Origin: a virus
IMG/VR virus record: IMGVR_UViG_3300025030_000216
Location: 1 to 41,845 of that record
Length of the DNA: 41,845 nucleotides
Reading direction: 5' to 3' (one strand)
Shown here: positions 7,660-41,845 of the stretch, piece after piece
Numbering within the stretch: the first letter of the stretch is position 1
Layout: each line of letters opens with the position of its first letter
The notes under the pieces: model-generated
What the model was told of the DNA's origin: nothing
Database searches by the model: none
What the model saw: only the letters and a program-made list of their open reading frames with translations
Program-made: the position numbers and the translations under genes

Positions 7660-8103
7660 ATGAAAAAACTTATTGTTGCTTTATCTCTGGTGTTGATTTG
7701 CGCCTGTGCCTATGCCGATAGGGTCGTAATCGATCGCGACGGGAAAGGAAATGATGGCATTGTCTCCCCCAACATGCAACTCCCGACGGGGGACGACTCT
7801 GCTTTCGGGTTTCTCGATCTGGCTACAAGCACACAAACTTTTTCCCCTGGGGCTGCAACCCGCTTTGATGTGTCTACCATTGAGATCAGAAAACTTTACG
7901 TTTATGTCTACGGCGGGGATTTGCTGGTAGGTCATGGTAACGATCTTGCATCCGGAACGCTTGCAAATGGCGTTTTGATTTCAAGCGGTACTCAAGGCTA
8001 CATTGGCGGTCTGGTTGGGACCACAACCCCTCCTATATGGGGCTTGCCAACAGGCGTTGCAACCATCACTACAAAGTATTCGGGTTGGGGTAACGTCCAA
8101 TGA
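7660..8103 (+). CDS. Exported beta-rich protein with Sec signal peptide
   Basis: The ATG at 7660 has AAGGGGG about 6 bases upstream and is preferred over GTG 7651. Residues 1-19 (MKKLIVALSLVLICACAYA) form a typical Sec signal peptide with an AYA cleavage site; the mature protein would be ~128 aa. The remainder is rich in Gly, Thr, Ser and short beta-strand patterns, like phage fibre or adhesin fragments, but no family was recognised. It is the first gene behind a late-type promoter and overlaps the next gene by ATGA. A lipoprotein reading (ICAC) is possible but weak. Confidence 0.75.
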   Translation: MKKLIVALSLVLICACAYADRVVIDRDGKGNDGIVSPNMQLPTGDDSAFGFLDLATSTQTFSPGAATRFDVSTIEIRKLYVYVYGGDLLVGHGNDLASGTLANGVLISSGTQGYIGGLVGTTTPPIWGLPTGVATITTKYSGWGNVQ

Positions 8104-9170
8104 AACGATTTTTCGCGCTTCTTTTGCTTTGGTTCCTTCCACTTTCAATCGCGTTCGCGGTTGGGGGCGTGAACGGCGGGAGCGGATTTTCCGGAACTGA
8201 CCCAACGAAAGTTGCAAAGGCCGGGGATACCATGACCGGAGACTTAACAATATCGGCGGATCTTACCGTAACCGGCATCGCCTCTGCAACCGAGGGGCAC
8301 ATTGCAACGGCGTCTATCGGAACTCTGACGGTGATAACCCCTATCGGAATTTCCCTCGACGAGATTGAAGACCTCGCCACGGACAAAGTTTTCACGATGG
8401 CCAACAAGACGCTTGAATACCGGTTTACGAACCCTGCCGGGGGTATCAAGTGGGTGTGGCAGGGGGCTGCAACGGGGCATTTCTGGGAGCTTATGCAGGA
8501 AACCGGGAACCCAGGCGCGGGAACCCATCTGGCTCACATCCAGGCAGAAGACAGCGATGTGTTGCTTCTTCACTTGGTTCATCCAGGCACCCCGACGCCG
8601 GGCTATTTCTCGATCGATACAACCGATGATGCCAGCTCCGTCGGCGACATTTTCTGGGTAAACTCTGCCGGTGAAACGATGATAGGCTCTACCACGGACG
8701 CGGGCGCGTTCAAGTTACAGATTTTCGGGGATTCGTATTTCGGGGGGAATGCCTCTGTTTCTGGCACTCTCGACGCTGGAAACCTCACCATAGGCGGGGA
8801 TCAGGTTGCCATAGCGCTATCCGGCGACGAGGTTCTAATCGAAACCGCTACTTCCTCCTACCCCCTGCCAACGAACGGGGCCGCGGTGGCGGTCCCTGTG
8901 GCTTCAGGCGCGGTGGTGATGGCCGATTTCTGGGTGTCGCTTCAGGCGTCACCGACTCAACTTGTCTACGCGACCCGTGTTTCAGCAACATGGAGCGGGT
9001 ATAACAATACGATAACGACAGTGGGAAGCGAGGCAACCATTTTTCACAAACGGAACGCTCCCACCTGCAATGTGTTCATCGACGATTACGGGCGGGTTGT
9101 GGCGAGTGTCCCGGCAAATGTCAGGGCGCGGGTAACGAAAACCGAATATACCACGATGGGAGGCGACTGA
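8100..9170 (+). CDS. Tail-fibre-like protein with Sec signal peptide
   Basis: The N-terminus MKRFFALLLLWFLPLSIAFA is a clear signal peptide, cleaved before VGGVNGG. A segment near residues 38-60 (AKAGDTMTGDLTI) is the motif common in phage tail fibres and baseplate spikes, followed by Thr/Val/Gly-rich beta repeats. The C-terminal ~100 residues look like a compact beta domain. A fibre normally assembles in the cytoplasm, so the signal peptide is unexpected. The start overlaps the previous stop (ATGA), and the gene ends in TGATG with the next. A receptor-binding or surface role is inferred. Confidence 0.75.
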   Translation: MKRFFALLLLWFLPLSIAFAVGGVNGGSGFSGTDPTKVAKAGDTMTGDLTISADLTVTGIASATEGHIATASIGTLTVITPIGISLDEIEDLATDKVFTMANKTLEYRFTNPAGGIKWVWQGAATGHFWELMQETGNPGAGTHLAHIQAEDSDVLLLHLVHPGTPTPGYFSIDTTDDASSVGDIFWVNSAGETMIGSTTDAGAFKLQIFGDSYFGGNASVSGTLDAGNLTIGGDQVAIALSGDEVLIETATSSYPLPTNGAAVAVPVASGAVVMADFWVSLQASPTQLVYATRVSATWSGYNNTITTVGSEATIFHKRNAPTCNVFIDDYGRVVASVPANVRARVTKTEYTTMGGD

Positions 9171-9496
9171 TGGACGCTCCGAAATGCTTGGTTATTGGAA
9201 TCATGCTGTTGATCGTGCTGGCCGGTGTTGAGTTCCAGGTGTGCCAGCGGCTTGACGCGGTAGAGATTGAAAGCGCGCTGAAGTCTCCGAACGTCCAGAC
9301 AGCCGTTGGCCCCGGCTTTGTTCAGGCTGTCGGGTGTAAGCATGATGTTATTTTTTCAACGTTGCTGCATTCTACCGATGGCCAGGACCGCAATACACAC
9401 ACCTGTCATTCATGCGGGATGCAGCGGCGCGGTAATGGCCCCTGGGTCATGCCCCTTCGCGGTCTGAAATCACCCAATCCGGAGGTAACACCATGA
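9170..9496 (+). CDS. Small membrane-anchored protein with a Cys pair
   Basis: 108 aa. One N-terminal membrane segment lies at about residues 7-22 (CLVIGIMLLIVLAGVEF). The rest is soluble and probably periplasmic, and contains TCHSCGM (CxxC) near residue 80. A GGGAGG ribosome binding site precedes the ATG, and both gene ends overlap the neighbours. No family recognised. It could be a lysis accessory (spanin-like) or a chaperone for the exported fibre proteins; neither is demonstrated. Confidence 0.65.
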   Translation: MDAPKCLVIGIMLLIVLAGVEFQVCQRLDAVEIESALKSPNVQTAVGPGFVQAVGCKHDVIFSTLLHSTDGQDRNTHTCHSCGMQRRGNGPWVMPLRGLKSPNPEVTP

Positions 9497-9987
9497 AACG
9501 ACTTGTACTAATTCTGCTGTTTGCGCTCTGCCTGATGCCGTGTTTCGGCGCGGGGGAGAGCGGGGTTAAGTTAGGCGGTGGGTCGCTGGGATTTACACCG
9601 ATTCTCGTTATTGCCTCAAGCACCGAAAATTTGAATGGCGCATTTGTCCCACAATGGACTGTTGAGGATTACGATACCAATAACGCGTTTGTTGTCTCTA
9701 CGTTTACGGCACCGATGGATTGTGTGGTAACCATATCGTATCGCGTTAAGGGCAACCAAGACACCGGGCAGTTTCAGGATATTTATACTTACAAAAACGG
9801 TATTCTTTACTTGCCCGGTTGCGACTCTATCTACTCCTACTCTTCTGGGCTCCCAGTAGTTAATAAGGTAACGACAACGGTCCGTCTGCTGAAGGGGGAA
9901 ACATTGGGATTCAGCGGGTATTCTCAACGAAGCACCTCGAATTGCCAACTTTCGATTTCAATAATGGGATTCGGTTTCGAGGAATAA
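9493..9987 (+). CDS. Exported C1q/TNF-like jelly-roll protein
   Basis: A GGAGGT ribosome binding site precedes the ATG, which overlaps the upstream stop. Residues 1-19 (MKRLVLILLFALCLMPCFG) form a signal peptide. The mature part alternates short beta strands: FTAPMDCVVTISYRV, a Tyr-rich middle, then VTTTVRLLKGETLGFSGY and LSISIMGFGF. This resembles the C1q/TNF-like trimeric domain often found at tips of phage fibres. The fold is a visual judgement. It probably acts in attachment or as a surface-displayed protein. Confidence 0.7.
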   Translation: MKRLVLILLFALCLMPCFGAGESGVKLGGGSLGFTPILVIASSTENLNGAFVPQWTVEDYDTNNAFVVSTFTAPMDCVVTISYRVKGNQDTGQFQDIYTYKNGILYLPGCDSIYSYSSGLPVVNKVTTTVRLLKGETLGFSGYSQRSTSNCQLSISIMGFGFEE

Positions 9988-9992
9988 ACAAT

Positions 9993-10499
9993 ATGTCAAT
10001 AGTCATCCCACAACGCTCCTCCGCAGACTGCGAGGAATCCGCCCTTGCCACGGCCAGCGGCGAGAGCTACGAGGCCGCGAAGAAGGCTGTCGGGAAGGCT
10101 TCGGGGCTGCCGGAAGCCGCGAATGATCCGCTTTTCGGCAATCCTGAGAATATGCGCGGCGCGATTGAGCGACTCGGATACAAGCCGGTCAGGCGCACGT
10201 TGACGGACATCACCAGCGGCATCGGCGATTTCCGGCGCACCGTGATCCTGCTTCGGGCGTCCACCGCTTCACAGCATTGGGTATGTGGCGATCGAGTTCA
10301 GGGTGGCGTGGCGTATCTACATTGGGGGGATGGCAACGTGAAATCGTATCCCATCGAGAAATTCAAGACCTTATTCGGGCCGACGAAGGCGCACCTATTC
10401 AGCTTTAACGCGGCGTTCGAGGTTGGCCCGAAAGAGGGTAAGATCAGCCGGTTTCAGCAGGTGTTGAACTGGTTCAAAAACATTTTTAGAAAGAGGTAG
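9993..10499 (+). CDS. Papain-like (C39-type) cysteine peptidase candidate
   Basis: The ATG at 9993 is preferred over an upstream TTG (9942) inside the previous gene. A candidate catalytic Cys is at residue 13 (SSADCEESALA), His at about 95 (TASQHWVCGD) and a later WGDGN as the third residue: the Cys...His...Asp/Asn order of papain-like peptidases. The last ~20 residues are basic and amphipathic (WFKNIFRKR). It precedes holin-like genes, so it may take part in lysis as an unconventional peptidoglycan amidase/peptidase or in processing; the substrate is unknown. Confidence 0.6.
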   Translation: MSIVIPQRSSADCEESALATASGESYEAAKKAVGKASGLPEAANDPLFGNPENMRGAIERLGYKPVRRTLTDITSGIGDFRRTVILLRASTASQHWVCGDRVQGGVAYLHWGDGNVKSYPIEKFKTLFGPTKAHLFSFNAAFEVGPKEGKISRFQQVLNWFKNIFRKR

Positions 10500-10503
10500 C
10501 CCA

Positions 10504-10710
10504 ATGGAACCCTGCCCTACTGGCGAGTGCAAAAACCACGGGCACAGAATTTTGAGCCTGGAGGAACGTATGGAACGAGTTGAAAATAACCAGAGAGATC
10601 CGCGAATCTGGGTAGCGGTGTTCGGTTTGGTCGGTGTGGTCCTGTCTACTGCCGGAAGCGTTTGTGGTGTTGTTTTATCGGCATGGGCGAAAAGTAACGG
10701 GTGGCTGTGA
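10504..10710 (+). CDS. Holin candidate (XhlA-like small membrane protein)
   Basis: 68 aa. A short Cys/His-containing N-terminus (CPTGECKNHGH) is followed by an amphipathic helix (ILSLEERMERVENNQRD) and one long hydrophobic segment at ~36-60. This order matches XhlA-like holin accessory proteins. A GAGGT ribosome binding site precedes the ATG. It sits between the peptidase-like gene and the DUF5675 gene, a lysis-like neighbourhood. Confidence 0.6.
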   Translation: MEPCPTGECKNHGHRILSLEERMERVENNQRDPRIWVAVFGLVGVVLSTAGSVCGVVLSAWAKSNGWL

Positions 10711-11120
10711 TGTTTAAAGCTTTTCTTGATAGGCTTTACGACGATGGGACGCGCACGTTGGGCGTATTGAACGTCTATGACTGCCTTGGGTTGGTGTTCT
10801 CGTGCCGGACGCTTGAGCCGCCATGGATCAATAACGAGCGGAATAAATCTTGCATCCCTGTCGGGAAGTACGAACTTGTTTTAAGAACCTCGGAAAAATT
10901 TGGTGAACATTTTTTGGTGAAAAACGTCTATGATCGGGATCTGATCTTAATTCACGTTGGCAATTTTCCGGGAAATACAAGCGGTTGCATCCTGGTCGGA
11001 AGCAGTTTTACGGACATTGATGGTGACGGGAGGCCGGACGTTGGCAAAAGCAAAGCGACTTTTGAACGACTGCGGAAAATCCTTGGTGGTGCCGAGTGCG
11101 ACTTGTTTGTTAGCGGATAG
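10710..11120 (+). CDS. DUF5675 family protein
   Basis: The ATG at 10710 overlaps the previous stop (TGATG). The 136-residue protein shows the DUF5675 pattern: an N-terminal beta region, CIPVGKYEL near residue 48, then RDLILIHVGNFPGNTSGCIL with the conserved His and Cys. This family is found next to phage lysis genes. Its activity is not established; the IH...GC arrangement recalls L,D-transpeptidase-like sites, which is only a resemblance. Confidence 0.75.
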   Translation: MFKAFLDRLYDDGTRTLGVLNVYDCLGLVFSCRTLEPPWINNERNKSCIPVGKYELVLRTSEKFGEHFLVKNVYDRDLILIHVGNFPGNTSGCILVGSSFTDIDGDGRPDVGKSKATFERLRKILGGAECDLFVSG

Positions 11121-11232
11121 ATGCAATGAGCCGGGGTGCTTTAACCCTATTGAGATCGGCTGTAATTGCCGGTCATGTTACCTGAAGATATCCGCCGAAA
11201 TGGCGAAAACAGTTGAAAGGAAAAGACGATGA
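11089..11232 (+). CDS. Small Cys-rich protein (possible zinc knuckle)
   Basis: 47 aa from GTG 11089, overlapping the end of the DUF5675 gene in another frame and ending in ATGA overlap with the next gene. Cysteines cluster in RCNEPGCFNPIEIGCNCRSC, suggesting metal binding. The overlap pattern matches this operon; start and reality are uncertain because much of the frame lies inside the upstream gene. Confidence 0.4.
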   Translation: MPSATCLLADRCNEPGCFNPIEIGCNCRSCYLKISAEMAKTVERKRR

Positions 11233-11615
11233 CCTTATCTGACTTATTCACTTTCGAGAATTTCAAGCTTGCAATCACTCTCTCAGGCTGGCTTTTAGCA
11301 GTTGCAATTTTCACGCTGTCCTTTATTGCCCCGCGAACCGCCACAACCAAAGACGATGAAGCCCTGGTCAAACTCAAATGGCTTCGAGACAACGCTTTCC
11401 TGGCGTTCTCGAAGGTAAAATTCTGGCATGAATCAGGGAAAATCCCGGTGAATACTGACCGCTACGAGGCATACATCAAGGAGCTTGAAAAGGCTTTTGA
11501 ATCTTCATGGGGTCAGAAGCTTCCGGAAAGGTTTTTACCCGAAGCAAAATTGATCGCCGAGGGGCTTCACTCAGTGGCAAAATTAAACCCTCCTCCCGGC
11601 CCGGTGTCTCGGTAA
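11229..11615 (+). CDS. Holin-like membrane protein (LLH-type candidate)
   Basis: 128 aa with a GGAAA ribosome binding site. One membrane helix lies at about 16-35 (LSGWLLAVAIFTLSFIA), followed by a cytoplasmic charged helix and the C-terminal pattern FLPEAKLIAEGLHSVAKL. A single N-terminal TM plus a C-terminal helical domain resembles LLH-type phage holins. Its position in the lysis-like cassette supports this, but an inner-membrane spanin subunit is an alternative. Confidence 0.5.
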   Translation: MTLSDLFTFENFKLAITLSGWLLAVAIFTLSFIAPRTATTKDDEALVKLKWLRDNAFLAFSKVKFWHESGKIPVNTDRYEAYIKELEKAFESSWGQKLPERFLPEAKLIAEGLHSVAKLNPPPGPVSR

Positions 11616-11728
11616 GCATCGGGCCGCGTGAATCTGAAATCGGTATCAAAGTCCGGGACGTCTGGGCCGGGCTGAAAATAGGGCGGCACAAGCCGGAATG
11701 GGGGTTCGAGTGGCGAAAAGACTTTTAA
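11507..11728 (+). CDS. Overlapping small ORF between holin-like and exported genes
   Basis: A 73-codon frame beginning inside the holin-like gene and ending inside the next gene. The part in the otherwise non-coding gap, starting near 11612, reads as ordinary protein (RESEIGIKVRDVWAGLKIGR). Without it, 11616-11709 has no coding assignment. No ribosome binding site supports ATG 11507; it could be a remnant of a longer gene. Confidence 0.3.
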   Translation: MGSEASGKVFTRSKIDRRGASLSGKIKPSSRPGVSVSIGPRESEIGIKVRDVWAGLKIGRHKPEWGFEWRKDF

Positions 11729-12285
11729 CTGTTGTGATGGTTCTTTGTGCCGCTGCTGCGTCTGCTCAAATAGCCACAATGCCCTATCGGTGGAATTACG
11801 GAGACCCTGTCTACGGGCATGAAGTCAACTGGAATTTCGACCAGATGAACACGAACACAACCGCCTGGCTTGCCACCCTCACATACATTCTTGGCCTGAC
11901 CACGGCAGACAATACCAAGCTTGCTTCTTTCACCACCACAGCCGCAAGCACTACGCAAAACCTAATCTGGGATGAGAATGCAAGTAACAGTGTTCCCATG
12001 GTTGGATCTGGGGCGTTTTCTTTCAGTTCTGTGATTACGTTCGCGGGTAATGGGTTACTATCCGGGGGGATAAACCTTGAGGGGGTGGTTGGGTTTACGA
12101 CCGCCTCTGGCGCATATTTTGCGGGGGATACCATTGAAACCTTTTGGGCAATCCCAAGTAAAAGCTTTGGGTGTGTTGCGTCCTGTTCTGTTGTTTCCGG
12201 GGCTTTGCGGTTCTCGCTGATTGCATCGGCTCCGGCTGGCATAAAAATCAATTCCCGAACCCGATTCGTAAATTCAACCTTTTAA
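11710..12285 (+). CDS. Exported beta-rich protein with Sec signal peptide
   Basis: GTG 11710 with GGGGG upstream gives the signal peptide MAKRLLTVVMVLCAAAASA followed by Q; ATG 11698 adds four residues. The mature ~172 residues start with an aromatic-rich segment (YRWNYGDPVYGHEVNWNFDQ) seen in phage fibre/neck-like proteins, then become Thr/Ser/Gly-rich with two cysteines close together (GCVASC). No family assigned. Probably part of the exported fibre set. Confidence 0.7.
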   Translation: MAKRLLTVVMVLCAAAASAQIATMPYRWNYGDPVYGHEVNWNFDQMNTNTTAWLATLTYILGLTTADNTKLASFTTTAASTTQNLIWDENASNSVPMVGSGAFSFSSVITFAGNGLLSGGINLEGVVGFTTASGAYFAGDTIETFWAIPSKSFGCVASCSVVSGALRFSLIASAPAGIKINSRTRFVNSTF

Positions 12286-12299
12286 GGAGAGCTCCAACC

Positions 12300-12731
12300 A
12301 TGAAAAAACTCATTCTTGCTTTGGTCCTGATTGTTACCGTTTCCACTGTTCTTCTCGGTGCTGAGGCTCAGACCCGCCCGCATTGGAGAACCGGCGAAAT
12401 CCTTCGCGGTGGGGAACCCGGACAAGACCCGAATCAACTGGTCACGATGCAACTTGACAATATCAAGCCGGTTATTGCGTCCTCTGCCAGCGTTCCGGGT
12501 ACCTGGACAATCGTATTACCCACCACGTATTCTTTCGTTAAAATCACCGACGCGCACGCGGCTACCGGCACATGCAATGCTCTTTCTATTGCTGCTGCTT
12601 CCGAGGGGATGGTGCTGTACATTTTCAACGGTGACGCCTCCCCAACGTCCGGCATTGCAACGATCTCGTCAAATAAGATGGGCGTTTTGTTTTATGCCTC
12701 TGCAACCTGGAACTTGCTTTCCGACGAGTGA
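12300..12731 (+). CDS. Exported beta-rich protein with Sec signal peptide
   Basis: The ATG at 12300 is preceded by AAGGAG (10-base spacing). The first ~23 residues, starting MKKLILALVLIVTVSTVLLG, are a signal peptide with a probable AEA cleavage site. The mature ~120 residues resemble a fibre-tip beta domain (WTIVLPTTYSFVKI, GVLFYASATWNLLS). It overlaps the next small gene by GTGA. A receptor-binding or decoy role is inferred only. Confidence 0.7.
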   Translation: MKKLILALVLIVTVSTVLLGAEAQTRPHWRTGEILRGGEPGQDPNQLVTMQLDNIKPVIASSASVPGTWTIVLPTTYSFVKITDAHAATGTCNALSIAAASEGMVLYIFNGDASPTSGIATISSNKMGVLFYASATWNLLSDE

Positions 12732-12907
12732 TTCCGAAGGAAAGTATTCTGGTTGGGGTTCATGCCCTACTTGACGCTGTCATGGACAAGGGGGATGGAC
12801 AAGATTATTACCGGATAAATCACGCGCCCGCTGAGTCTGTCAGCGGGCTTTGTGCGTTGCTCTCCGGATGGTTGCGCGAAAGAGGGGTGAAGGTTGGGAA
12901 TAAATGA
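12728..12907 (+). CDS. Small uncharacterised protein
   Basis: 59 aa beginning at GTG 12728 with a 4-base overlap (GTGA) with the preceding gene. The sequence is helix-rich (ILVGVHALLDAVMDKG, VSGLCALLSGWLRERG) without a membrane span. Family not recognised. The overlap and its own overlap with the next zinc-ribbon frame support a real gene in the tail of the operon. Confidence 0.55.
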   Translation: MIPKESILVGVHALLDAVMDKGDGQDYYRINHAPAESVSGLCALLSGWLRERGVKVGNK

Positions 12908-17157: not shown

Positions 17158-17714
17158 ACTTTCTCCTTCCTTTCTCGCGGTTGGAATGCAGCACAAGGAC
17201 AAGGGTCGTTCTCAAAGTCTTTTATGATGCACTTCCGCCGATGTTTACACCTTTCCCCGTCCCGCTCCCACCGCTCATGTATCACCATCGCCAAAAGCGC
17301 CACATCCTGACCGCATTTCGACGGCCATACCGGCTCACCGTTTTTGATCTGCCGGGCCAGGGTCATTAGGCCCGCGTGGTTCCGGTTTTCACACTGGCTG
17401 TTGATTGAGTCGGCTATGGGCCTTGGTTTTTGGGCTTCTTTCCAGTCCACAAACTCCTCATAATCAGCCGTGCTTACCACCGAAACACCCTCGGGCATGC
17501 TCACCATGTCACCTTCAAGGACATGCTCAATTATCGACTTGAGATGTTTTTCCCCTTCCTCCCGCGCCTGCCGGATCGCGGCGTTGATTGCATTGACCTC
17601 CGTCTCCGTGATATCGGCTATCGGCGAGAGACAGCAATCGTTTTGTGGGTGGGTAAGTAATTTTTCATATGGCGGGCGGTCGGCCCAGTTGCCACCGCAA
17701 AGAGCGCATTTCAT
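17154..17714 (-). CDS. Uncharacterised protein with an N-terminal zinc knuckle
   Basis: 186 aa. It starts MKCALCGGNWADRP (CxxC plus a later CC), then a helical segment ~38-65, a beta region, and a C-terminal Cys cluster (CKHRRKCI, CPCAAF). Similar Cys pairs at both ends suggest a zinc-stabilised protein. No family recognised. ATGA overlap with the upstream gene. Confidence 0.6.
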   Translation of the reverse strand: MKCALCGGNWADRPPYEKLLTHPQNDCCLSPIADITETEVNAINAAIRQAREEGEKHLKSIIEHVLEGDMVSMPEGVSVVSTADYEEFVDWKEAQKPRPIADSINSQCENRNHAGLMTLARQIKNGEPVWPSKCGQDVALLAMVIHERWERDGERCKHRRKCIIKDFENDPCPCAAFQPRERKEKV

Positions 17715-18247
17715 GGCTCCACCTTCCGTTTAAGGAGCTTCAGGCCGTAGAACAGGATCTTGAGTTGCATTTTTACCCCGGCTGCTGCCCCGGCTGCCCA
17801 GGCTGCCAAGGCTGCTGCCCCGACTGCTGCCCCTGCGGCCCAGGCTGCCAAGGCTGCTGCCCCGACTGCTGCCCCTGCGGCCCAGGCTGCCCAGACTGCT
17901 TCCCTGGCTGCCCCTGCGGCCCCTGCGGCCCCTGCGGCGGCCCTGTTTCCCGGCGTGTCTTTTTTTAGACACGTTTCAGCCGCTTCGATAGCGGCCCTCG
18001 GCCTGTTGTCGCCGGGATATTTTTTCTCGAAAATATCTAACACCTGCCTGGCGGCGTAGATCGCGTAGGCCAAAAAATGTTTCCTCGTCATCCCCCGGAC
18101 GATTACCCAGTTAGCCCATCCGAGCCTCTTTTCCTTGATGAGTTTTTCAACCACTCTTAGGTGATCCCGCTTCTCCTGCGCCCAGAACCATTTCTGGCCG
18201 GGTTCGCAGGCGTCCCATTTATCCAGCCATTCTTGAGTTATTTTCAT
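17711..18247 (-). CDS. Imm-5-like domain protein with Ala-rich repeats
   Basis: 178 aa; GAGGAGG ribosome binding site 8 bases before the ATG. Residues ~40-90 match the Imm-5-like (putative immunity) pattern: LGWANWVIV, HFLAYAIYAARQVLDIFE and KYPGDNRPRAAIEAAE. Residues ~100-160 are an Ala/Gly/Trp repeat encoded by 42-base tandem units. The family is common in phages, and a true immunity role is unproven. It is the first gene behind the internal promoter and structured leader at 18270-18421. Confidence 0.7.
   Translation of the reverse strand: MKITQEWLDKWDACEPGQKWFWAQEKRDHLRVVEKLIKEKRLGWANWVIVRGMTRKHFLAYAIYAARQVLDIFEKKYPGDNRPRAAIEAAETCLKKDTPGNRAAAGAAGAAGAAREAVWAAWAAGAAVGAAALAAWAAGAAVGAAALAAWAAGAAAGVKMQLKILFYGLKLLKRKVEP
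17797..17899. repeat. 42-bp tandem repeat inside the Imm-5-like gene
   Basis: Two identical 42-base units at 17797-17838 and 17839-17880 are followed by a degenerate partial third copy. Each encodes AALAAWAAGAAVGA (14 residues) on the minus strand. The exact DNA identity points to recent slippage or expansion. Confidence 0.85.
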
Positions 18248-18392: not shown

Positions 18393-18421
18393 AGTATATC
18401 AGGGTTGCCCGGAGTTGTCAA
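18393..18421 (-). promoter_or_regulatory. Strong sigma70-like promoter
   Basis: On the minus strand, TTGACA (18416-18421), a 17-base spacer, then TATACT (18393-18398). The -35 overlaps the stop codon of the radical SAM gene. It would start RNA near 18386 and drive the lower half of the leftward operon. A TAAAC/GTTTA inverted repeat at 18356-18367, downstream of the start site, could be an operator. Confidence 0.8.
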
Positions 18422-19233
18422 CTGTTGGTTTTTGCATGGATAATAGCCGGTCGCGCCCATCGCTTTTGAAATTTGGACCACCCCGGTTTTTTCTTCCCGG
18501 TTTTTTCGTCCATCAGAACCATGGCCATCGGCGTGAAGCCTGCGTCCATGGCTTCAATCATGCGCTTCTCGGCCTTTTCTTCCGAGTCATTTTCCCACCC
18601 GCAAAGGACGTAACAGCGAAGCGCGTGAGATGCGCGGGTAAATCCCGCTCGAAGCATCATTTCCCCGGCAATTTGGAGCGGTTCGAGGTCGTCCTGGGTA
18701 TCGTAGGCGAAAAAGGCTTGCTTGGTCTTGAGCCGCCTTAATTCTTTCGCAATTTCTGGCGTAAGCCTTTTGGCTTCCAACCCCCCGGTAAACTCTGGCC
18801 GCCGGTCCTGTTCAGACAGCATGGAAAAAACCTTTTCAAGATGGGTTCCAGAACAGGCTAGAAGGTTGCTGTCAAGCACGTTCCAGCCTCGCCTAATTGG
18901 TAATTCTTGAATGTGCCCTTCTCGGCTTGGAACAGCGCAAAACCAACAGTTGTTCGGGCATCCCCGGCTGGTGATCGTGTAGCCATTCCGGACAAAAAGC
19001 CCGGGCGTGAAATCATCAGCAGAAGATCCATAAGCAGGACCGCCAACAACAACCGGCGCGATGTATGCCCATGCCTCGCGGAGTGCCTCTATCTCCCGCA
19101 GATGCCAAGTGAACAGGACCGAGATGAATACTTTTTCGATTCCCGGCGGTAAATGCTTCGGCGGGAATCCAACAAAGGCATACTCATCGTCAGGTGTTGC
19201 CGTTGTTCTCGTCGGAAAGACCCTTGCAATCAT
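18418..19233 (-). CDS. Radical SAM enzyme
   Basis: 271 aa from ATG 19233 (GGAGG 10 bases upstream; a TTG at 19254 with TTGA overlap is possible). ITSRGCPNNCWFCAVP near residues 87-102 is the CxxxCxxC iron-sulfur motif of radical SAM enzymes. GGLEAKRLT and ALRCYVLCGW are further barrel strands. The protein is short, with no obvious auxiliary domain. It lies beside a DUF5131 protein, a pairing known from other phages. Substrate unknown; nucleic-acid or peptide modification is possible. Confidence 0.85.
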   Translation of the reverse strand: MIARVFPTRTTATPDDEYAFVGFPPKHLPPGIEKVFISVLFTWHLREIEALREAWAYIAPVVVGGPAYGSSADDFTPGLFVRNGYTITSRGCPNNCWFCAVPSREGHIQELPIRRGWNVLDSNLLACSGTHLEKVFSMLSEQDRRPEFTGGLEAKRLTPEIAKELRRLKTKQAFFAYDTQDDLEPLQIAGEMMLRAGFTRASHALRCYVLCGWENDSEEKAEKRMIEAMDAGFTPMAMVLMDEKTGKKKPGWSKFQKRWARPAIIHAKTNS

Positions 19234-19250
19234 TTCTTTCCATCCTCCAT

Positions 19251-19412
19251 TCAATAAAATTCCTCAAGCACCTGCCACAGCCAATCCACAAGCCCCCACT
19301 CCCCCGCCATCCCTGCCGCCATGATCGCGTTGGAGATCGCTGAGACCATGGCGGCCTCGTCGCTCTCCGGGTCGCGGTCAGGAGGCAGGATGGTATCAGG
19401 GAGCGGCGTCAC
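19251..19412 (-). CDS. Small protein between radical SAM and DUF5131 genes
   Basis: 53 aa from GTG 19412 (GTGA overlap with the DUF5131 stop). The N-terminus is Pro/Asp-rich (LPDTILPPDRDPESDEAA), and the C-terminal helix is amphipathic (WGLVDWLWQVLEEFY). No Cys, no membrane span. Not recognised. It could be a partner or substrate of the adjacent enzymes. Confidence 0.6.
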   Translation of the reverse strand: MTPLPDTILPPDRDPESDEAAMVSAISNAIMAAGMAGEWGLVDWLWQVLEEFY

Positions 19413-20218
19413 TTCGGAAATTCCCTGGGGGCTCCCGTAACCACGACCCCATGACTATTCTTTTTGAAGAAAAATGGGATTCCAGCCGCTTTGCATTGGT
19501 TTGAAAGCCTGATAGCCCAATCCATATTCATCGGTCGCGCCTTTGGCCCCTGCTCCGCTCCGCAGATAACCCAATTTGGTGACATAGATTTTTCTCGGCA
19601 CGATTTGCATGTTGGCGATGTGCAACGCTGGCAAGGTGGACTCATCCTGATTTCCTCTAGCATCGGTTCAACCGACACGAAGTGGACCGCAGACGGAATC
19701 TGCATCAACAGCGGAACACGCCGGTTGTATTCGTCTTGGTTCTCGGCTGTCACCCCGAACCAAATATTTCCCGGAATACGCTCTCCGCTCCCGGTCATGC
19801 CGTTAAACTCCGGAAGAAGGCCATAGTTGCCGAATATTTTGAGTGCGTTTTCCGGGCGTTTGGTCAGCAAAATAAACGTATGCCGGGGGCTTTTCTCAGC
19901 CATCGTAAGCACGTTCAAGACCATTTTCGGGTAAGCACTCTCATGGAAAAGGTCGCTCATGGAACACACGAATATTTTTCGGGGATTTTTCCAACGCTCC
20001 GGCTTCAGCAATTCATCCGGCCGGAATTGGGTTGATCCTGTCCACCCGTCTTTTGTAACCACGCAGCGGTATTGATGCCGTAGGCCGTGGGGTATAACTG
20101 GATTGTTTGCCAGCCTCCATGCCATTTTTTCCGCGTAGCAGTTCTGGCACCCAGGAGATACGCGGCTACAGCCTATAACAGGATTGATTGTGGAATCTGC
20201 CCACTCTATTTTAGTCAT
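19409..20218 (-). CDS. DUF5131 (phage Gp37/Gp68 family) protein
   Basis: 269 aa from ATG 20218 (AAAGGGG upstream). It begins TKIEWADSTINPVIGCSRVS with SPGCQNCYAEKMA, the three-Cys hallmark of DUF5131. It continues with FVCSMSDLFHES, FILLTKRPE, IWFGVTAENQ and HFVSVEPML, all typical. A second Cys cluster (CQRCTSPTCKSC) near residue 200 is extra. The family is thought to be iron-sulfur/radical SAM related. It is commonly carried by phages with unknown substrate. Confidence 0.9.
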   Translation of the reverse strand: MTKIEWADSTINPVIGCSRVSPGCQNCYAEKMAWRLANNPVIPHGLRHQYRCVVTKDGWTGSTQFRPDELLKPERWKNPRKIFVCSMSDLFHESAYPKMVLNVLTMAEKSPRHTFILLTKRPENALKIFGNYGLLPEFNGMTGSGERIPGNIWFGVTAENQDEYNRRVPLLMQIPSAVHFVSVEPMLEEIRMSPPCQRCTSPTCKSCREKSMSPNWVICGAEQGPKARPMNMDWAIRLSNQCKAAGIPFFFKKNSHGVVVTGAPREFPK

Positions 20219-20228
20219 ATTTCCCCTT

Positions 20229-20552
20229 TCACTCGAACGGCAGGCGCATGACCTCTTCCAGCCATGCCAGAGCCTGCCCGCTCTTGATGTGCTCCCCGGT
20301 GACGCGCAGGACGCGCCAACCCTGAAGCATCGCCAGATTGTATTTCTCGCAATCATTCGCAAAGCCCTTCCCGCTGGTATGCCTGCCCCCGTTCCAAGTG
20401 CCGCCATCGACTTCGAGAAGGAGTTTCAGCGCGGGCCATGCGAAGTCAGCCCGGAAACACCTGCCATGGATGAAAAGGTATTCCCTGATCGGCTCCGGCC
20501 AGTCGCAGGCTTTGATTTGGAATGCCATTAGCTCTTCGAGTTTACTTGCCAT
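20229..20552 (-). CDS. Vsr/DUF559-like endonuclease (PD-(D/E)XK fold)
   Basis: 107 aa from ATG 20552 (GGCGGAG upstream). The region FRADFAWPALKLLLEVDGGT holds the D...ExD catalytic arrangement of very-short-patch-repair-like nucleases. Then come GRHTSGKGFANDCEKYN, QGWRVLRVTG and a C-terminal helix. Similar small proteins occur widely in phages. It may nick or resolve DNA in recombination or host DNA degradation. Confidence 0.75.
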   Translation of the reverse strand: MASKLEELMAFQIKACDWPEPIREYLFIHGRCFRADFAWPALKLLLEVDGGTWNGGRHTSGKGFANDCEKYNLAMLQGWRVLRVTGEHIKSGQALAWLEEVMRLPFE

Positions 20553-37567: not shown

Positions 37568-38239
37568 ATGACTTTCGCCGCGCTTGTTGCCCTGATCCAG
37601 AATGAAATCAACGATAACACATCTCAGATGCAAACCCGAATTGAAGGGTGGGTTAATGACGCCCATCACGAAATTTGTGCGTATCGCGATTGGGTTTGGC
37701 TTGAGGCCGTGGTAACAAGCATTACCCTGAAAACATCGAATCTCCCGATAAACATTCAGACCGGGTTTTCCACTCCGTTGCGGAAAATTCTTGATATTCT
37801 GGATTACACCGCATCGCCTTATGATCCGCTCCGGGAATCGACCTCGGATGAGGTCCGCGGGTTCATGCAGAATTACGCGAACTTTACGGACATCCCCGAA
37901 TACTATTACATGATTGGCGTTACGCTGGACCTGTTTCCTCCGGCTGATGCAACCGGGAGGAGCTATTCAATCCGGGGAACAAAACTGGCTTCGAGTTATA
38001 CCACCGGCTCAACAAGTGCGCTATTGGTGCCTGACAGGTGGGTATCTGCGTTGAAATACTCTGTTTTGTATCGGGCCTGGGCCTGGCTGAATGACCCACG
38101 GGCGGCAACGTCCATTGCCGAGTTTAACCGGCTCCTGGATAAAATGCTCTCCGAGGACACCAGCGAGGGCGCAAAGATCCAGTATGCCCATCGACGCCCG
38201 CCTAACTCGATCTTGCCGAGGCTGATTGATAACTCATGA
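37568..38239 (+). CDS. Head-tail adaptor protein
   Basis: 223 aa. TFAALVALIQNEINDNTSQM, RIEGWVNDAHHEICAYRDW, YYYMIGVTLDLFPPADA and an Arg/Trp-containing helical C-terminus match podovirus-type connector adaptors (gp4-like). It overlaps the hub gene by ATGA. Confidence 0.8.
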   Translation: MTFAALVALIQNEINDNTSQMQTRIEGWVNDAHHEICAYRDWVWLEAVVTSITLKTSNLPINIQTGFSTPLRKILDILDYTASPYDPLRESTSDEVRGFMQNYANFTDIPEYYYMIGVTLDLFPPADATGRSYSIRGTKLASSYTTGSTSALLVPDRWVSALKYSVLYRAWAWLNDPRAATSIAEFNRLLDKMLSEDTSEGAKIQYAHRRPPNSILPRLIDNS

Positions 38240-39771
38240 AAAGAATTTGGCTTGCTGTTATTTTGATTGTCTTGTCCTTGGCGTTTTGCGCGCTGGGACA
38301 GGTAGACAGAGTGGAATATTCGGATTTTAGCGGGGGCCTTTACGCTGGATACGATTCCCGCAAGTGCCCACCTAACCAATTCCTTGAGCTAAAAAATTGC
38401 ATTATCCAGGCTGACGGCTCGCTGACTGTTCGGGGAGGGTTCAGAAAAATAGTTGTTCCGGATAACGTCACTGAGGCCGGGCACTTATTCCGCTTCGACG
38501 GGTTCCCAATAATCACCCGGACGGCCGGATCTACCGGGGTTTATGCAAATTTTGTTGGTTCAAGCACACAGTTACCCCTCGGGTTTGTTACCGGTTTCGT
38601 ATCTGCGGCGACAATGGATGATTACTTGATCTATGGCGGATACGGTGGAGCTTTATACACTTGGTACAAATATGCTACGATGGCGGCTAATATTACGTCC
38701 TCGCGGATACAGGACATTATTGCTCATAACGACCGGGTTTTTTATGCCTCCGAGGGAACCCTTTACGAATCAGCCGTAGGAAGCGCAACAGATTTTGCAG
38801 GCGGGGAAGCTTGGGTTGTTGGTGGCGGGGAAGGCGGGGAGATAACAGGGCTTGGCCAAGCCGATGGGTCCTTGTATGTCTTTAAGGAGCGGAAAATTTT
38901 TCGGATGGATGGCTATTCCCCGTCCGAAAGGGTATTCACAAAGATTTCTGATATCGTAGGCTGCACCGCTGGCGGCAACCCGATATCGTTCAAAAGTGCG
39001 TCAATCGGCGATGGTATTATTTTCCCAACTGACCGGAGCGATTTATACATGATCGCGAATAGCCAGGTATATGATGTTTGCTCTCATATCAAGAAGCTTC
39101 TTCCGGGTCCCGGGGCCAATTTTAGGTTGACCCTGAGCAGAAAACTAGGCTTGGGTATTTTTTACGAAGAAACGAATGATACTTGGTATGCGCTTCATCT
39201 TGATTCCATCACTGCCAGGCCTGGCGGGTTTTTTATCCCAGTGTCGCAATGGTATTTGACTCCGAAGACCTCATCTTCATTACCGATTCTTATTGGTGGT
39301 GAAGACGATTTCTGTGCAACTACGGGAGAAGAAAACGGCGGGGCAAGCACCCCTCTTTTTCTTTATTATGACACCCGGTCAGCTTCTAATATGGCGATTG
39401 ATAATTTTAACAGCGCAACAATGACCCCGGTCATAAGCGTTAAAACTTCGTTTGACCCTCTTGGTGATGAACGATATTTGAAAAACGTGAGGAAAATAAC
39501 TGTGAGATGTTCCAGCAAAGAATCTGCTGGAACCGGGTTGGCTACAACCACGACCTCATTTAATTTTTCTTCTGCTGTTGTTTCTTCTGCTACAGAAACC
39601 GCGTCACTGGCTACCGAGTCGGTCAAGATCATTTCTTACCCGTCGGGATATTTCGAGCGTATCAGCATCAATTTTCTGATTTCTGGCGCAACCCCCTTGA
39701 GTGGGAATGGGCAAACGATCAATATCCATTCGATTATTGCTGATTATGTGTTGGGTTCGCGGGTGTATTGA
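38236..39771 (+). CDS. Tail hub/stopper (beta-propeller type) with a signal peptide
   Basis: 511 aa. The mature part begins VEYSDFSGGLYAGYDSRKCP, with QFLELKNCIIQADGSLTVRG, blades GYGGALYTWYKY and RKIFRMDGYSP, the usual beta-propeller stopper/nozzle of podoviruses. Residues 1-21 (MKRIWLAVILIVLSLAFCAL plus G) look like a Sec signal peptide, unexpected for an internal tail protein. The ATGA overlap makes a downstream start unlikely. Confidence 0.8.
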   Translation: MKRIWLAVILIVLSLAFCALGQVDRVEYSDFSGGLYAGYDSRKCPPNQFLELKNCIIQADGSLTVRGGFRKIVVPDNVTEAGHLFRFDGFPIITRTAGSTGVYANFVGSSTQLPLGFVTGFVSAATMDDYLIYGGYGGALYTWYKYATMAANITSSRIQDIIAHNDRVFYASEGTLYESAVGSATDFAGGEAWVVGGGEGGEITGLGQADGSLYVFKERKIFRMDGYSPSERVFTKISDIVGCTAGGNPISFKSASIGDGIIFPTDRSDLYMIANSQVYDVCSHIKKLLPGPGANFRLTLSRKLGLGIFYEETNDTWYALHLDSITARPGGFFIPVSQWYLTPKTSSSLPILIGGEDDFCATTGEENGGASTPLFLYYDTRSASNMAIDNFNSATMTPVISVKTSFDPLGDERYLKNVRKITVRCSSKESAGTGLATTTTSFNFSSAVVSSATETASLATESVKIISYPSGYFERISINFLISGATPLSGNGQTINIHSIIADYVLGSRVY

Positions 39772-41593: not shown

Positions 41594-41845
41594 ATGGCAT
41601 ACGATCTGAAAAGTAGGTTTGACAAGATTTCTCCGGTTGCCTCCAACAAGACGGGGATACAGCTTGCGCTTGATTGGATACGGAAGGGAACCCCTGGGGG
41701 AACTCCCATGATAGCCCCTGAAAATGACGGGGAAAGCAAACCCCTTCAAAATGACCTGGGAACATCGCCGGGGTCAGAACCGAAGAAGGGGAGCGTTATT
41801 TCCCGGCTTGCCAAGGCCATTGGCCTCACCGCGCTTGCTGGTGGT
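41594..41845 (+). CDS. Internal/ejection protein, 5' part (continues at window start)
   Basis: 84 codons open to the window end, starting MAYDLKSRFDKISPVASNKT with AGGAGG before the ATG. Joined at the shared 8 bases (41838-41845 = 1-8), the frame continues to 734 for a 325-aa protein. Joining without the overlap would give a stop after a few codons. See the entry at 1-734. Confidence 0.7.
   Translation, partial: MAYDLKSRFDKISPVASNKTGIQLALDWIRKGTPGGTPMIAPENDGESKPLQNDLGTSPGSEPKKGSVISRLAKAIGLTALAGG

Follow-up and report, generated by a model that had tools for sequence, protein, structure and literature searches.

Sec-type signal peptides on fibre-like proteins and a probable tail nozzle of a podovirus-like phage

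In the accepted view, tailed phages build their tails in the cytoplasm. What, then, are export signals doing on fibre-like proteins encoded by the late genes of such a phage, and do the proteins that carry them belong to the virus particle or to the infected cell? The question is raised by the genome of a virus, IMG/VR record IMGVR_UViG_3300025030_000216, which was analyzed over its whole length of 41,845 bases and is referred to here as 'the window'. A preliminary description proposed that five proteins of one operon begin with signal peptides, that several have tail-fibre or C1q-like features, and that together they may form a previously undescribed attachment or surface-display system.

Positions 1–8 of the record are identical to positions 41838–41845, and a reading frame stays open over the joined ends (from a start near 41594 to 734); the genome is therefore probably complete and circularly closed. 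Small and large terminase, portal, capsid protein (phrog_9953, E 7e-46) and SU10-type adaptor occur in podovirus order, and by its genes the virus is a podovirus-like tailed phage with an SU10-type adaptor. The nearest relative found, G001, has a capsid protein 54% identical to that of the window. The sequence points to no particular host: the Acidobacteriales match (L061) is a DnaJ-like chance match, and the capsid protein has only distant matches in Acidobacteriota. Elsewhere in the window, a 178-aa protein (17711–18247, minus strand) has consecutive Ala/Gly/Trp repeats that are nearly identical to one another (WAAGAAVGAAALAAWAAG...), and the early region at 18418–20407 (minus strand) includes two radical-SAM-type-looking genes with CxxxCxxC motifs.

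The operon in question (7660–12907; 12 genes) lies downstream of a gene for a 2292-aa protein. It is tightly tiled, with short gaps or overlaps, and its signal-bearing genes are interspersed with genes that probably form a lysis cassette (Table 1). One of the latter, the DUF5675 protein at 10701–11120 (plus strand; PF18925, E 5.9e-30), is likely a cell-wall enzyme.

Table 1. Features of the operon and of the adaptor–nozzle junction. A slash marks the cut site placed by eye; 'SP score' is the score under the home-made signal rule.
Position	Strand	Feature	Observations
7660..8103	+	147-aa protein, mature part without known family	N-terminal signal MKKLIVALSLVLICACAYA/DRVV; SP score 9.6
8100..9170	+	356-aa fibre-like protein	Signal MKRFFALLLLWFLPLSIAFA/VGG, then GSGFSGTDPTKVAKAGDTMTGDLT tail-fibre module; SP score 8.4
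9170..9496	+	108-aa protein, N-terminal hydrophobic segment	Score 9.2, poor cut site
9493..9987	+	164-aa protein, beta-rich mature part	Signal MKRLVLILLFALCLMPCFGAG/ESG; SP score 8.3
9993..11615	+	9993 (unknown), 10504 (one TM, holin-like), 10701 (DUF5675), 11229 (one TM)	No signal in scan
11710..12285	+	191-aa protein, GTG start (ATG at 11698 possible)	Signal MAKRLLTVVMVLCAAAASA/QIA; SP score 8.8–9.1
12300..12731	+	143-aa protein	Signal MKKLILALVLIVTVSTVLLGAEA/QTR; SP score 9.3
37568..38239	+	SU10-type adaptor	PF24175 E 1.3e-19; without signal peptide
38236..39771	+	Probable tail nozzle	Signal MKRIWLAVILIVLSLAFCALG/Q; SP score 8.7; alternative internal GTG ~38311

Signals were sought with a home-made rule that scores a positive n-region, a hydrophobic core and a small-residue cut motif. 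It was applied in all six frames to every ATG, GTG or TTG start followed by 60 open codons (993 starts), and cut sites were then placed by eye at the small-residue motif. Scores of 8.2 or more were confined to seven genes: the five proposed originally, all present at their proposed starts, together with 9170 and 38236; the last is also signal-bearing and had been overlooked. Head, portal, adaptor, terminase and ejection-type proteins are without signals in the same scan. Markov random sequence yielded none among 2457 starts, even at a threshold of 7.5. Control loci from related phages yielded two genes out of 1164 at 8.2, compared with seven out of approximately 50 real genes in the window (Fisher p 4e-9, given this approximate count); a first control set yielded five out of 1025 at a lower threshold. 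Six of the seven high scorers fall within the operon (p 4e-4). Calibration on 83 proteins of E. coli K-12 gave scores of 6.4–9.2 for all eight known exported proteins, and likewise high scores for the N-terminal transmembrane segments of HokC, NhaA, AcrZ and YbhI, so that a high score signifies 'signal or anchor' rather than cleavage.

Acceptable cut motifs are present in the five genes and in 38236. There is none in 9170, the segment of which is better read as a membrane anchor that stays uncleaved than as a signal peptide. By the home-made rule, n-region, core and cut motif have the form expected of Sec/SPI substrates; a lipobox with invariant cysteine (SPII) had no match in the seven N-termini. 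When compared, the DNA sequences that encode the signals of the window are unlike one another. They are thus not mutual copies, which rules out a single signal cassette copied between genes; rather, the same feature has been kept in unrelated sequences. Judged in this way, from sequence, the Sec-type signals are genuine; they are also clustered, and much more frequent than chance allows.

The mature proteins are less eloquent. The 8100 protein has an AGDTMTGDLT module common to many viral fibre genes, and bears out the fibre-like part of the preliminary description to that extent: its best profile match, the tail-fibre family phrog_5667 (E 0.096), is also the best obtained when the signal-bearing operon proteins were compared with curated tail-fibre families, none of which was matched. 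A C1q-like reading of 9493 (a jelly-roll fold) was not confirmed; its structure model is of low confidence (pLDDT 50), mostly beta, and has no Foldseek match at E ≤ 0.001. Pfam and PHROG gave no match to 7660, IMG/VR no relatives of 12300, and tblastn of 7660, 8100, 12300 and the nozzle no match among cultured phages. For the window's five proteins, 'fibre-like' is thus a label with weak backing in sequence.

The seventh gene, 38236, is a different matter. It follows the adaptor gene directly, overlapping it by a 4-base ATGA, and from this position and from the start of the protein it is probably the tail nozzle. Its structure model has a pLDDT of 29, too low to show the beta-propeller fold of known nozzles, and hhalign against four nozzle-like proteins was without significance; the IMG/VR search with the nozzle found it in one relative only. 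The signal sits after the adaptor-coupled start codon and immediately upstream of a stretch conserved in G001. There the homologue occupies the same coupled position and begins MGNAKKDIVYNGFAGG, without a signal, where the window protein begins MKRIWLAVILIVLSLAFCALGQVDRVEYSDFSGG, and so the signal must have been gained or lost between the two; none of the late genes of G001 scored as signal-bearing. Translation from a GTG just before the conserved body is possible, and would forfeit the coupled start. A signal on the nozzle was found in the window phage only, and in none of G013, G017, G012 or 27 control loci. As a separate matter of nomenclature, phrog_5107 ('amidase') directly follows the adaptor-position gene in phage Mx8 and three others (L134:26850-28460 is p52 of Myxococcus phage Mx8); it resembles a nozzle, and its name is thus probably wrong.

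Is the arrangement peculiar to this phage? Viral loci were gathered by means of the tail-fibre module found in 8100. A signal is absent from most of the fibre genes that share this module, and present in several unrelated lineages, often in adjacent genes. Runs of signal-bearing genes occur in the tail or late region of G013 (five), G017 (four) and G012 (three), counted over whole records. The signal-bearing fibres of G016 and G017 (762 aa and 479 aa) end in a C-terminal Peptidase_S74 chaperone and have many PHROG tail-fibre matches; one signal-bearing protein of G013 has a laminin-G domain, and one spike in this set of four genomes is weakly pectate-lyase-like. A T7 gp17-type attachment domain in a fibre of another locus (L119), plausible by eye, was set aside since the comparison was not significant. 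When 881 genomes from three further phyla were screened for adaptor-bearing loci, one locus had signal-bearing fibres: L229 (G729:C58), a phage-like contig of an Acidobacteriota genome, with three signal-bearing genes. One encodes a 2030-aa spike, the pectate-lyase-like domain of which starts eight residues past the predicted cut; another encodes a 124-aa protein; in the third, a frame of 546 aa, a signal is present only from an internal Met. This contig is a possible lead to hosts of such phages. In 27 adaptor-bearing loci from Pseudomonadota genomes the next large gene has no signal and there are no runs, and in five phages related by capsid protein there are again no runs and the nozzle is without a signal.

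Runs of three to five signal-bearing genes thus recur in four lineages of unrelated uncultured phages. The preliminary description holds insofar as the signals are real and the same arrangement is found on domain-confirmed spikes and fibres; as a system unique to the window phage it does not. In sequence, at least, signals on such spikes and fibres in unrelated phages support an export step for receptor-binding proteins. The mature signal-bearing proteins of G016, G017 and G729:C58 match known families of fibres and spikes, S74 (PF13884) and pectate-lyase-like (PF12708), and the AGDTMTG module found on such fibres is also present on 8100, although the fibre-like proteins of the window have no match to any curated family. 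To our knowledge, the known members of these families have no signal peptide, and both their synthesis and their assembly are cytoplasmic. Sec signals on the fibres or nozzles of tailed phages are not described in the literature searched, which took in few subscription journals and no preprints and so offers weak evidence of absence. The component families are all known ones, and what is new is the way in which they are combined.

The reading that we favor, tentatively and at somewhat less than an even chance, is that distal tail proteins are exported by Sec and added to particles at or after lysis. On this reading, cleavable signals stand on several fibre-type proteins as well as on the probable nozzle, and not on head, portal, adaptor, terminase or ejection-type proteins. 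Late in infection the host Sec machinery would move the distal tail proteins out, and signal peptidase would trim their N-termini; the mature proteins would fold and oligomerize beyond the inner membrane, and would join filled, adaptor-capped heads either as lysis opens that membrane or soon after release. We infer all of this, from the identity of the nozzle through export, cleavage and extracytoplasmic folding to the late attachment to particles. In its strictest form, assembly would take place in two compartments: the nozzle and all other parts beyond the adaptor would be Sec precursors that mature past the inner membrane, and heads would gain their tails only once it opens. We consider this stricter form unlikely, since the window's is the one nozzle seen with a signal and its translation may begin at an internal codon. 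The virion proteins pVIII and pIII of filamentous phages have cleaved signal peptides; these, however, are assembled within the inner membrane and leave by extrusion, whereas the window encodes a tailed phage with a packaged head. We know of no tailed phage in which the tail is completed only on membrane opening. Export of distal tail proteins also has difficulties of its own: heads in the cytoplasm would be out of reach of an exported nozzle, and so would stay unplugged, until the membrane opened, which does not fit easily with podovirus assembly as it is known, and G001, the closest relative, evidently manages without signals, while the nozzle may start at the internal GTG.

Possible too, though rather doubtful, is that the five small proteins are exported and never enter the virion. 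They might cover the infected cell's envelope, or be set free at lysis, in order to block superinfection, to shield receptors so that progeny escape, or to act as adhesins, and the nozzle signal would be an oddity or a mis-annotated start. Superinfection-exclusion lipoproteins are exported phage proteins that act in this manner. The operon is intermixed with probable lysis genes, no virion-attachment domain was recognized in the window's proteins, and secreted cellular proteins of Elusimicrobiota have the 8100 module behind signals. Known exported phage proteins work in this way or in lysis. Examples for lysis are the late proteins that tailed phages pass through the host Sec machinery (Lys44-type endolysin, SAR endolysins, spanins and T4 RI; PMC6116005). 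Those resemble the window's proteins in being late and Sec-exported, but they are not tail proteins and do not form runs of fibre-like proteins. What tells against a purely cellular role is that the probable nozzle, an integral tail part, is signal-bearing too, which favors virion parts over decoys, and that signal-bearing genes elsewhere are S74 fibres and spikes of the tail region.

It is quite unlikely, in our estimate, that the N-termini remain uncleaved, whether as an inner-membrane assembly platform or as a hydrophobic attachment or membrane-penetration segment kept in the particle. The nozzle would then stay within reach of heads at the membrane, the scoring rule is blind to the difference between a signal peptide and an N-terminal anchor, and 9170, in the same operon, is anchor-like; yet in five cases at least the segment is short (10–16 hydrophobic residues) and ends in a small-residue cut motif of the typical kind (AYA/D, AFA/V, ASA/Q, AEA/Q and ALG/Q). 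Very unlikely is recombination debris, in which genes or signals were acquired from secreted fibre-like proteins of the host, the signals have no role and the nozzle starts at the internal GTG: that codon does immediately precede the conserved nozzle body, and the module does lie behind signals in secreted Elusimicrobiota proteins, but six unrelated, intact signals in one genome, each at the coupled or best start, together with independent cases in other phages, point to selection. The proteins concerned, from Elusimicrobiota and Omnitrophota (L055, L057), have a signal peptide and, further on, the AGDTMTG module; they differ from those of the window in that their genes are cellular, encode up to 2700 aa and have no phage context that we could see. 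The very long secreted proteins of Elusimicrobia among them (L055, L057) are a possible gene-exchange source for the phage fibre module.

Taken at sequence level, the signals suggest that in some phages the outer parts of the tail are exported first and joined to the particle afterwards. If so, pre-exported receptor-binding proteins would alter views of tail assembly, lysis timing and self-adsorption, and periplasmic chaperones and disulfide formation would become open to phage fibres. The signals themselves would allow such phages to be recognized from sequence and, since the arrangement recurs, the idea could be tested in any culturable phage that has it.
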